In this document: piece after piece, positions 16,000 through 38,522 of the stretch
Layout of the letters: the number at the start of each line of letters is the position of its first letter
Numbering within the stretch: position 1 is the first letter of the stretch
Assembly (NCBI RefSeq): GCF_000688255.1
Contig: NZ_JHYS01000001.1
Span: forward strand, 124,001 to 188,000
Origin: Simplicispira psychrophila DSM 11588
Lineage (GTDB): Bacteria; Pseudomonadota; Gammaproteobacteria; Burkholderiales; Burkholderiaceae_C
Direction of reading: 5' to 3'
Length of the DNA stretch: 64,000 nucleotides
Program-made: the position numbers and the translations under genes
Notes under the pieces: generated by a model
Databases searched by the model: none
What the model saw: the letters and a program-made list of their open reading frames with translations, nothing else
What the model was told of the DNA's origin: nothing

Positions 16000-16336
16000 G
16001 TGTGAAGCGCGCCGATAAGCCGGATTCTGTGCACCGCCGGCCCTCTTGCGAAGGCCTGCAGCGTGACCGCCATTACTCTGGGCCGGGTGTCGCCACCACG
16101 GCTCGATGCTACCTACCCGCCAACTCTGCGGAACCACATCAACGTTGGCCTACTTGGTATTGCTGCGCGTAGAGATTGCCCGTTTCACCCGAACTTAATC
16201 GGCTCGTCTCTGTTGCTCTGATCCTCACCTCACGGTGGGCAGCCGTTAGCTGCTACGCTGTCCTGTGCAGTCCGGACGTTCCTCCAGTGCCTGGTTTCCC
16301 AGCTTGCACCAGCGGCGGTCTGGCGCGCTTCACGGC
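16000..16336 (-). ncRNA. rnpB: RNase P RNA (type A)
   Basis: Catalytic RNA subunit of RNase P, which matures tRNA 5' ends. On the minus strand the 5' end GTGAAGCGCGCC (from 16333) pairs with GGCGCGCTTCAC near 16002-16013 to form P1. Conserved core blocks are present: GGAGGAACGTCCGGAC after the 5' stem, CAGAGCAACAGAGACGAG, GGGTGAAACGG, and GAATCCGGCTTATCGG near the 3' end. Size (about 335 nt) fits bacterial type A. Exact ends are uncertain by a few bases. It is divergent from the methyltransferase gene. Confidence 0.97.
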
Positions 16337-36237: not shown

Positions 36238-36549
36238 TTAATAGCTGATGGACATCGACGCCACATCCACCCGCACCACCGGTTTGCCCAGCGCAGCCTT
36301 GGCGGCGCGGGCAAAGTGCAGCGACCATTCCGGGTCAGCCAACAGGCGCCTGCCGCCGGCCTGCGCCACCGTGAGCACCTTGTCTGCGGCCAGCACCTTG
36401 CCGCTGGCGCGCAGCGGCTCGCACTCCAAGCTGACAAACTGGTCTTCCAGCCAGCGGCGGCCCTCTTCGTTGCTCATGGGCGCCTGATCTTCGAGATCAA
36501 ATTTGAATTCTTCGTTCTGGGACAAGGAGACAGAGACTTCGCTGCGCAT
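36238..36549 (-). CDS. Hypothetical 103-residue protein
   Basis: Small soluble acidic protein, no recognised domain. Visible segments include SLSQNEEFKFDLEDQ, NEEGRRWLEDQF and ADKVLTVAQAGGRRLLADP. The C-terminus VVRVDVASMSISY ends just before a dispersed repeat copy. It lies 46 bases downstream of the DAHP synthase gene on the same strand, so probably shares its transcript and attenuator. Reading frame and codon use look genuine. Function unknown. Confidence 0.72.
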   Translation of the reverse strand: MRSEVSVSLSQNEEFKFDLEDQAPMSNEEGRRWLEDQFVSLECEPLRASGKVLAADKVLTVAQAGGRRLLADPEWSLHFARAAKAALGKPVVRVDVASMSISY

Positions 36550-36595: not shown

Positions 36596-37741
36596 TTACA
36601 CCGTAGGCATGGCTTCTTTTTCAAGGGCGCGGCGGGCCTGCACGGCGGCAGCGAGTTCCCCCAGGGTGTGCAGCGAGTCTTCCCAGCCCAGGCAGGCATC
36701 GGTGATGCTTTTGCCATATTCAAGGCTGCTCGGCAGGTCTTTTCCGGGAGTGAATTTTTGCGTGCCAGCCATCAGGTTGCTTTCAATCATGAGGCCAAAC
36801 ACGCTGCGTGAGCCGGCGGCGATCTGCGCGGCAATGTCGCGCGCCACGTCTTGCTGCTTCTGGTGCTGCTTGCTGCTGTTGGCGTGGCTGCAATCAACCA
36901 TCAGGGTGGCGGGCAATTGGGCTGCAGCCAGGTCCTGGCATGCAGCGGCGACGCTGGCAGCGTCGTAGTTGGGTGCCTTGCCACCGCGCAGGATGACGTG
37001 GCAGTCGCGGTTGCCCTGGGTATCGACAATCGCCACTTGGCCGTTCTTGTGCACCGACAAGAAGTGGTGCCCCCGGCTGGCCGACTGGATGGCGTCGGTG
37101 GCAATGCGAATGTTGCCATCGGTGCCGTTCTTGAAGCCAATCGGCGCCGACAGGCCCGAGGCCAGCTCGCGATGCACTTGACTCTCGGTGGTGCGCGCGC
37201 CAATCGCACCCCAGCTGATGAGGTCGGCAATGTATTGCGGCGAAATGACGTCCAGAAACTCGCTGCCCGCCGGCACGCCCAGGCGGTTGATGTCGATCAG
37301 CAACTGGCGCGCCATGCGCAGGCCTTCGTCGATGCGGTAGCTCTCGTCCAGGTAAGGGTCATTGATCAGGCCCTTCCAGCCGACGGTAGTGCGTGGTTTT
37401 TCAAAATACACACGCATCACGATCTCCAGCGTGTCGGCGTACTGGGCCCGCGCGGCCTGCAGGCGACGGGCGTAGTCCAGCGCCGCCACCGGGTCGTGGA
37501 TGGAGCACGGACCAATGATGACCAGCAGACGGTCGTCGTCGCTGGCCATGATGTCATGGATATTTTTGCGGGTCTGCGTGACCAGCGTCTCGATCGCGGT
37601 GGCGCGGATCGGGAAGAAGCGGATCAAATGTTCGGGAGGGGGCAGCACGGTGATGTCCTTGATACGTTCGTCGTCGGCTTGGCTGGTTTTTTCGACGTTT
37701 CGGTACCAGGCATCGCTGGCGGGGGTGGCTTGAGCCGTCAT
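36596..37741 (-). CDS. aroG: 3-deoxy-7-phosphoheptulonate (DAHP) synthase, AroF/G/H class
   Basis: First enzyme of the shikimate pathway, condensing phosphoenolpyruvate and erythrose 4-phosphate. In 381 residues I see VIIGPCSIHDP, MRVYFEKPRTTVGWKGL, GFKNGTDGN, VDCSHANSSKQH and DACLGWEDS, all hallmarks of the class I AroG-like enzymes. The ATG at 37741 follows GAGAGGAAG. The gene is preceded by an intrinsic terminator and an aromatic-rich leader peptide, which suggests attenuation by aromatic aminoacyl-tRNA supply. Which isozyme this represents (AroF, AroG or AroH) cannot be told from sequence alone. Confidence 0.94.
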   Translation of the reverse strand: MTAQATPASDAWYRNVEKTSQADDERIKDITVLPPPEHLIRFFPIRATAIETLVTQTRKNIHDIMASDDDRLLVIIGPCSIHDPVAALDYARRLQAARAQYADTLEIVMRVYFEKPRTTVGWKGLINDPYLDESYRIDEGLRMARQLLIDINRLGVPAGSEFLDVISPQYIADLISWGAIGARTTESQVHRELASGLSAPIGFKNGTDGNIRIATDAIQSASRGHHFLSVHKNGQVAIVDTQGNRDCHVILRGGKAPNYDAASVAAACQDLAAAQLPATLMVDCSHANSSKQHQKQQDVARDIAAQIAAGSRSVFGLMIESNLMAGTQKFTPGKDLPSSLEYGKSITDACLGWEDSLHTLGELAAAVQARRALEKEAMPTV

Positions 37742-37780
37742 GGTTCGCTTCCTCTCGATGGGTAAATCAACAGACACTTA

Positions 37781-37818
37781 AAAACAAAAAACCGCCGGGC
37801 TCTGCAGCGTCGGCGGTT
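37781..37818 (-). terminator. Attenuator terminator upstream of the DAHP synthase gene
   Basis: On the minus strand AACCGCCG (from 37818) pairs with CGGCGGTT around a 13-base loop and is followed by TTTTTTGTTTTT. It lies in the 5' leader, 40 bases before the aroG ATG. Its 5' arm CCGCC (37813-37817) can alternatively pair with GGCGG at 37859-37863, at the end of the leader peptide, which would prevent the terminator. Confidence 0.85.
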
Positions 37819-37854
37819 GGGTGGGAAGTATTCAGGTGCTTGCGCGCTTGCCTC

Positions 37855-37911
37855 TCATCCGCCTTGGACCGAGAAGTAAAACCAAAAATAAAACGCGCCA
37901 CGTAAATACAT
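37855..37911 (-). CDS. Aromatic leader peptide of the DAHP synthase attenuator
   Basis: An 18-codon frame encodes MYLRGAFYFWFYFSVQGG. Seven consecutive residues (FYFWFYF) are Phe, Tyr or Trp, an extreme run for a random frame. It ends 37 bases before the terminator stem. A weak GAG ribosome site precedes the ATG by about five bases. The GGCGG that overlaps the last codons could pair with the terminator's 5' arm when a ribosome stalls on the aromatic codons. Translation to the stop would cover it and allow termination. This is the logic of trp and pheA leaders in enterobacteria. Confidence 0.82.
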   Translation of the reverse strand: MYLRGAFYFWFYFSVQGG

Positions 37912-37985
37912 GGCGCTCAATGTAGCACAGTCGCGCTGCACTGCAGCATGGCAACAACCCCGCTGTCGCCGCACCAGAAAACCTT

Positions 37986-38522
37986 TCACGACGCGCGATA
38001 TCGCTGCCACCAGGCACGCAGGCGCAGCCACGCCGCGCTGCTGCGCCCGAGTGGCACCGGCGGCGCCTCGCTCAGCGGGCCATTGCCATGCTGGTAGATA
38101 TCCACCAGCAGCACGCCCTCGCCCAAGGTGCGCCAGGCCAGCAGTTCGACGCGGTCAAAGCAGTCGCCCTCGCGCAGGCTGCGCTCCTCCAGCGCCTGGC
38201 GCCAGTCCTGCACGGCGCCAGACAATTCTTGTTGCGCGTTCTGATAAGCGTCAAAGGAATACAGGGTATGCCAAGCAGAATCGAGCCCGGTCAAAAAAAA
38301 CTGGTGCTGGCGCACGCCCTGCCACAGCGCCACCGCACAGCGGGTGATGTGCGCGGCATCGCGGCGCAGGCGGCGTGCCTGCAAGGCATTTTCAATGCAT
38401 TGGGCCAGCGCGCCTAGGCTGGTGCGCCATTGCTGCAACTCTTCCTCGGCCCGGAAATCGCGCCCAAAACGGCTGGAGTGGCCAGACCATGCCGGCGTGG
38501 GTTGCAGGCCGGTGCTCGTCAT
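37986..38522 (-). CDS. Hypothetical 178-residue protein downstream of tldD
   Basis: Soluble protein rich in Arg, Trp and Gln, with helical segments RAEEELQQWRTSLGALAQ and RRLRRDAAHITRCAVALW. A C-terminal part reads GEGVLLVDIYQHGNGPLSEAP and then a Trp/Arg-rich end. No known domain recognised. The ATG at 38522 starts 14 bases after the tldD stop, and upstream codons overlap tldD, so this start is reasonable although the ribosome site is weak. Likely the last gene of the rodA/tldD strand run. Confidence 0.72.
   Translation of the reverse strand: MTSTGLQPTPAWSGHSSRFGRDFRAEEELQQWRTSLGALAQCIENALQARRLRRDAAHITRCAVALWQGVRQHQFFLTGLDSAWHTLYSFDAYQNAQQELSGAVQDWRQALEERSLREGDCFDRVELLAWRTLGEGVLLVDIYQHGNGPLSEAPPVPLGRSSAAWLRLRAWWQRYRAS

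Follow-up and report, generated by a model that had tools for sequence, protein, structure and literature searches.

The window, a 64,000-nucleotide stretch of the Simplicispira psychrophila DSM 11588 genome, carries on its minus strand the gene aroG (36596..37741), which encodes a type I 3-deoxy-7-phosphoheptulonate (DAHP) synthase, the entry enzyme of the shikimate pathway, and which is the presumed target of the regulation described here. AroG scored 532 bits against the NCBIfam model TIGR00034 (aroFGH; cut-off 173), and its closest relatives among the best 80 named loci of a larger set were from Acidovorax (87% identity) and Simplicispira (85%), which places the organism in the Comamonadaceae. 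Upstream of aroG, on the same minus strand, are a small ORF, tldD and rodA. The small ORF (178 aa, 37986-38522, minus strand), located between tldD and aroG, had no NCBIfam match; relatives of it were present in 4 of the 80 named loci, and tldD in 54. Directly downstream of aroG is another ORF without NCBIfam match (103 aa, 36238-36549, minus strand), relatives of which, with 46–64% identity, were observed in 13 of the 80 named aroG loci; it is possibly co-transcribed with aroG.

Immediately in front of aroG we found a compact series of elements, all on the minus strand. An extended -10 element, TGC-TACATT (37919..37927), ends 7 nt before the ATG (37911) of a leader ORF, MYLRGAFYFWFYFSVQGG, which together with its stop codon (37857-37855) occupies 37855..37911 and was recognized by its sequence and by codon-level constraint. 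Seven consecutive aromatic codons, F-Y-F-W-F-Y-F (37873..37893), form the core of this ORF, and the last of them starts 12 nt before the motif GGCGG. The 3' end of the aromatic run contains CUUCUC (segment 1, 37871..37876), which can pair with GAGAGG (segment 2b, 37851..37856) to form a 1:2 hairpin. GGCGG itself (segment 2a, 37859..37863) is constant in nucleotides and variable in reading frame. Further downstream are CUUCCC (37823..37828), the pyrimidine strand of a second antiterminator helix in which GAGAGG has its other partner, and CCGCC (segment 3, 37812..37816), which is both the antiterminator partner of 37863-37859 and the 5' arm of an intrinsic terminator (the 3:4 helix, 37780..37818, AACCGCC...GGCGGTTTTTTGTTTTT). 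The 3' arm of the terminator, GGCGG at 37796-37792, is followed by TTTTTTGTTTTT. Direct folding of the terminator gave -16.6 kcal/mol, and the consensus scan gave partial stems only. A first-pass annotation of this DNA had described an 18-codon frame with seven aromatic residues in a row, followed by an intrinsic terminator before aroG, all of which is present. Its placement of the terminator was correct except for the distance to aroG, given as 40 bases; 38 bases lie between the end of the T-run at 37780 and the aroG ATG at 37741. It was silent on the strand, the 1:2 hairpin, the second antiterminator helix and the likely leaderless start.

Conservation of this arrangement was examined in the best 80 named loci, which came from one scan of the larger set and of which 79 had a usable upstream region (L016, with almost no upstream DNA, was left out of all leader counts). 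A leader-like aromatic-rich short ORF was found in 62 of the 79, counted as leaders by judgement, and none in 15; the aromatic ORFs in the remaining two, L048 and L062, were considered chance occurrences and dropped. A terminator of the form CCGCC...GGCGG plus T-run followed the leader in 60 of the 62, so that 60 of 79 named loci had the complete arrangement. The other two (L067 and L072) had the leader together with a GCCGCC variant of the terminator that lies outside the search pattern. Within the family, 119 of 120 genomes had an AroG match, and 40 regions were taken, mostly from the top of the match list. All 36 orthologue upstream regions among them had both leader and terminator, and neither was present in the other four (the second copies, or paralogs, L119, L121 and L122, and one region of 132 nt). 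In the order, 61 of 80 genomes had an AroG match, and 12 of 40 regions from other families (38 genomes) had leader and terminator. In total, 109 loci, including the window, had the leader and terminator core before aroG. The exact GGCGG was present in 104 of them, which made up the 104-row set (the five loci without it were left out); a few family regions were from the same species as named loci, and 101 of the 104 rows were distinct. Since the arrangement recurs in 36 of 36 family orthologues and in 60 of 79 named loci, its presence before aroG is more than chance as judged by comparison, and the check in relatives that had been proposed for the attenuator gave a positive outcome for leader and terminator as well as for the antiterminator pairing. 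The arrangement was missing from several related lineages, a point against the attenuator.

The aromatic run was under constraint at the level of codons. Counts were made over the eight codons up to and including the last aromatic residue, with 728 codons in 91 distinct runs. They comprised 368 TTY codons and one TTR, 154 TAY and no TAR, and 76 TGG, 3 TGY and no TGA. The ORFs had been picked for aromatic density, which favors Phe, Tyr and Trp codons; the same selection gave no ORF in the three second-copy regions and one in only 2 of 17 named loci counted as lacking a leader. Avoidance of TTR and TAR is not what one would expect of T-rich DNA that does not code, and this observation bears on a different explanation of the tract. 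A terminator-like hairpin, GCGCCATGTATTTACGTGGCGC (37916-37895, minus strand), overlaps the leader start codon and is followed by GTTTTATTTT; it might end transcripts arriving from the tldD side or be a chance feature. Being a good hairpin by scan, on the same strand and downstream of both tldD and the small ORF, it raises the question whether the T-rich tract is simply the U-run of a tldD-operon terminator and the aromatic peptide a chance reading of it. However, the run keeps its place in a 56-row alignment in which, by eye, the arms of this hairpin are absent from the other rows, the distance between run and GGCGG is constrained, and the leader also occurs where no tldD was found within 2.5 kb (for example, L040 and L043). 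On the alignment, codon and distance evidence we rejected this origin of the tract as very improbable. Thus, sequence comparison points to a short, coding-constrained leader ORF, predicted to be translated and rich in codons for the products of the pathway, of the kind that characterizes attenuators.

The first-pass annotation had also proposed that the GGCGG of the leader pairs with CCGCC in competition with the terminator. This alternative pairing is present in the window and was borne out by paired changes and swap tests in relatives. In the 56-row alignment, whose rows were chosen for an exact GGCGG, this motif near the end of the leader is invariant. Its frame relative to the leader was 0 in 57, 2 in 46 and 1 in one of the 104 loci, which indicates that nucleotides, not amino acids, are conserved. 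The 2:3 antiterminator consists of GGCGG:CCGCC and a second helix formed by GAGAGG and the pyrimidines before CCGCC. When strands were exchanged among the 104 loci, the cognate 2:3 core, the 3:4 arms and the second 2:3 helix all paired better than any of 400 swaps. Respective numbers of equally good swaps were 1, 1 and 0 of 400 in 74 mainly own-family loci, and 3, 0 and 33 of 400 in 20 loci of Burkholderia or Massilia type; the mainly own-family subsets in the swap tests were set by locus number and contain a few other lineages. Paired changes were seen in both helices. Of 55 rows, one antiterminator pair was C-G in 28, U-A in 10, U-G in 6 and open in 11. The two end pairs of the antiterminator, which is mutually exclusive with the terminator, showed two-sided exchanges in 10 and 1 rows and were sometimes open (unpaired in 11 and 14 of 55). 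The covariation score of the antiterminator was reached by 3 of 500 shuffles. The intrinsic terminator between leader and aroG had paired exchanges at two end pairs as judged by pair counts. In a wider alignment, 12 of 38 terminators showed an A-U pair replaced by G-C. Kinship of the loci inflates both the swap and the covariation tests.

The 1:2 hairpin, in which the pyrimidines closing the aromatic run pair with GAGAGG and which so overlaps the last aromatic codons, had at least four pairs in local folds from 112 of 115 loci. When all loci were used, no swap out of 1000 was equally good; two controls in which no pairing is expected gave 9 and 16 of 1000, and part of the swap signal is therefore relatedness. 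Equally good swaps numbered 9 of 1000 in the 43 loci that do not belong to the main group, and in 72 mainly own-family loci covariation was absent, with 691 of 1000 swaps equally good. Besides, hairpins with exchanged 3' halves had weaker mean energy in 40 of 40 trials. On these comparisons the 1:2 hairpin is likely, not proven.

Of 101 distinct loci, 73, the window included, had a TAnnnT hexamer ending 6–8 nt upstream of the leader ATG, as against 3.4 expected from shuffles, and a TG extension of the -10 box was present in 69 of these 101 loci (0.2 expected from shuffles); matches to a -35 box were mostly poor. Out-of-class loci had TATATG 6–7 nt before the ATG, and xanthomonad-like loci had TATCAA or TATCAC 7–9 nt before it. 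The 28 loci without a close -10 box include those of Burkholderia and Massilia type. A Shine-Dalgarno-like 4-mer preceded the leader ATG in 1 of the 101 loci. Because the -10 box is so close to the ATG and a Shine-Dalgarno-like motif was found in that single locus, the leader ORF is likely leaderless in loci with a close -10 box, and the predicted transcription start in the window is at or next to the A of the leader ATG. A start downstream of the leader, which would have spoken against attenuation, is unlikely given the -10 element directly before the ATG in 73 of 101 loci.

Distance between the aromatic codons and the antiterminator fits the reach of a ribosome. In 78 of 104 loci, the last aromatic codon begins 12, 14 or 15 nt before GGCGG, and a ribosome extends about 12 nt downstream from the first position of its A site. 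Because the spacing is close to this reach, a ribosome stalled at the last aromatic codon would cover segment 1 and just leave GGCGG free, which is the placement expected of control codons. When the RNA was folded as it is before segment 4 exists and a ribosome occupied the last aromatic codon, a setting that frees GGCGG by construction, all five GGCGG:CCGCC pairs formed in 115 of 115 loci; in ribosome-free RNA they did so in 41 of 115. Compared as isolated structures, the antiterminator exceeded the terminator in stability in 77 of 101 loci; in the window it was weaker (-14.3 against -17.1 kcal/mol). Once segment 4 was included, the minimum-energy state was the terminator in 115 of 115 loci if the ribosome stood at the stop codon, in 111 of 115 if there was none and still in 100 of 115 if it was stalled, which counts against a switch at equilibrium. 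Equilibrium folding thus did not reproduce the switch, as the terminator mostly wins, and the choice between the two structures would have to be kinetic, as is usually assumed for attenuators.

Taken as a whole, the leader of aroG is very probably a ribosome-mediated transcription attenuator, as had been suggested for it. Comparison among loci supports a translated leader, the alternative helices 2:3 and 3:4, their spacing and the identity of the target gene; what we infer from this arrangement is where transcription starts, that the ribosome stalls, what part 1:2 plays, that the choice is kinetic and how the switch responds to the individual amino acids. Transcription would probably start at or next to the leader AUG, and translation of the leader would proceed with no Shine-Dalgarno sequence. 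With ample charged Phe-, Tyr- and Trp-tRNA, the ribosome would reach GGCGG and the stop codon. Segment 2 would then be masked or engaged in 1:2, CCGCC would pair with the downstream GGCGG, and transcription would terminate before aroG. If any one of the three were short, the ribosome would stall in the last aromatic codons and cover segment 1, GGCGG-N2-GAGAGG would be free to pair with the pyrimidines and CCGCC, and the terminator would be blocked, allowing transcription of aroG. The strong conservation of nucleotides in GGCGG, GAGAGG and the terminator could also be expected of an RNA that acts mainly without translation, such as a riboswitch or a protein-bound leader. We regard this as highly unlikely in view of the codon-level constraint, the narrow distance between codons and GGCGG, and the absence of an Rfam match at gathering score. 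The search with Rfam 15 gave no match at this score in the window region, in 13 further loci or in 6 more; four matches in the region below gathering score, including ncS54 of Burkholderia, were read as chance.

With regard to the amino acids sensed by the attenuator, codons were analyzed in 115 leaders within a five-codon control window, defined as codons starting 25–11 nt before GGCGG. Its 575 codons included 242 for Phe, 117 for Tyr and 88 for Trp, and the 923 codons upstream of it included 228, 102 and 11, respectively. Thus, 88 of 100 Trp codons were inside the control window, and all three aromatic residues occurred there in 69 of 115 leaders. Placement of these codons, in sequences that are related, suggests that one leader may sense Phe, Tyr and Trp together, as the first-pass annotation had proposed. 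A narrower version, in which the attenuator is real, only Phe (or Phe and Tyr) matters and Trp codons are incidental, draws on the dominance of Phe codons (on average 4.4 per leader, with 1.8 for Tyr and 0.9 for Trp), on the absence of Trp from 16 of 101 leaders, and on the Corynebacterium glutamicum AroR leader, whose read-through, according to a review (PMC11802643), follows Phe and not Tyr. The concentration of Trp codons in the control window and the 69 leaders with all three residues, which come from related and not independent loci, argue against this version, and we consider it unlikely, with perhaps a quarter of the weight.

Regulation of this type has well-known counterparts. The trp, phe and ilv leaders of enterobacteria are attenuators, of which the ilv leaders sense several amino acids; they share with the aroG leader the control codons, the alternative 2:3 and 3:4 helices and the 1:2 helix that is likely here, and differ from it in genes, sequences and the Shine-Dalgarno sites of their leaders. 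DAHP synthase genes in enterobacteria are controlled by TyrR/TrpR repression and their products by feedback inhibition. A parallel in function is aroR-aroF of C. glutamicum, where a DAHP synthase gene is subject to ribosome-mediated attenuation through a leader with Phe-Tyr-Phe (PMC11802643). That system, compared here by description, belongs to another phylum; the review names Phe as the signal, Tyr, although encoded, having had no effect, and Trp is not mentioned in the passages on this system. The uORFC-13-1 motif, reported before aroF in Acholeplasma and environmental sequences only (PMC8632094), is likewise a predicted uORF with a U-run coding for Phe and a terminator in front of a DAHP synthase gene; in contrast to the aroG leader, a ribosome-binding site and at least one Phe are proposed for it, and this comparison is also by description. 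The attenuator RNA of Sinorhizobium meliloti trpL (rnTrpL) begins with the AUG of the leader peptide (PMC7298713, PMC10117765), as is predicted for the aroG leader from its -10 boxes, whereas its target is trpE and trans-acting RNA and peptide have been demonstrated there. In addition, an attenuation hypothesis for E. coli aroF has been cited, and a 2005 survey, which has an entry for Bordetella, lists attenuators predicted for operons that contain tyrA. In Burkholderia cenocepacia, 82 short 5'UTRs were attributed to processing or attenuation (PMC5688073), and the aroG leader may be among them. Our literature search, which mostly did not extend to subscription papers, found no aroG attenuator for these bacteria. 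Each trait of the aroG attenuator thus has a precedent, the combination appears undescribed, and the element is apparently an unnamed RNA family.

Distribution of this family was examined with covariance models. Model R1 had one full-length copy in the own genome, the present locus, and none of 18 weaker matches up to E = 1 was full length. It matched 36 of 150 genomes in the order (E up to 1e-5), 8 of 140 in the class (E 1e-3; three full length), 8 of 40 in the family taken for xanthomonads, and 11 of 120 in the phylum (E 1e-6), five of them outside the class; class names of the out-of-class and xanthomonad-like genomes are inferred. All 30 loci analyzed from the own genome and order had aroG at the match. 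Among the other six order genomes, the matches in G129 and G342 adjoin aroG by coordinates; the match in G370 is on a different contig from its aroG and was considered a false positive, as were matches L173-L178, which had no aroG in the locus. The eight xanthomonad-like and five out-of-class loci of the phylum search had aroG and a recognizable leader. Model R2 matched 7 of 192 genomes of the class to which these out-of-class loci belong, five of them with aroG, and 6 of 232 genomes of the own class. One of the R2 leaders (L225) is at a contig end, and another match (L226, G710), a terminator downstream of a putative argB with no leader in a genome without AroG match, was rejected as a false positive.

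A quick tree built from 110 AroG proteins required 7 changes of the attenuator label, as against a mean of 16.1 for shuffled labels (0 of 500 as low). Labels were assigned by pattern, proteins below 300 residues or with stops being left out, and L042, missed by the pattern, was relabelled by hand; 18 of 128 proteins (17 attenuator-bearing and L016) were omitted by hand, which alters the label counts. The xanthomonad-like and out-of-class AroG proteins, 17 in all, grouped together (SH-aLRT 96) among beta-proteobacterial proteins from loci with the attenuator, and the Devosia MAG locus L067 grouped with the out-of-class loci. Loss in Polynucleobacter and Cupriavidus and joint spread of gene and attenuator would explain this tree, in which the root and several forks are unsure. 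AroG of L045, L047 and L048, from MAG contigs labelled Planctomycetota or Verrucomicrobiia, also grouped with beta-proteobacterial proteins, a placement that would reflect contamination or transfer; the attenuator is absent from these three loci. A far-reaching extension, which we consider doubtful, is that one attenuator family travelled with aroG through alpha-, beta- and gammaproteobacteria as a leaderless sensor of three aromatic amino acids, and that its prematurely terminated RNA, about 130 nt long and, like rnTrpL, a small leaderless mRNA, or its aromatic peptide also acts in trans.

The aroG attenuator is common in the family of the window and occurs in several other proteobacterial families, and the RNA family could be used in annotation. 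Without any regulator protein, a single cis element at the entry of the pathway could integrate the supply of the three aromatic amino acids. It is a natural candidate for a sensor with three amino acid inputs and provides a further probable case of an attenuator with a leaderless leader ORF. The own genome encodes a second DAHP synthase (L082, G000:C2:196046-197101), 55% identical to AroG. Because a sequence pattern search found no attenuator pattern upstream of this copy, the two isozymes may be differently controlled. Elsewhere in the window, the bacterial class A RNase P RNA (RF00010, 209 bits) was identified at 16000-16331 on the minus strand.
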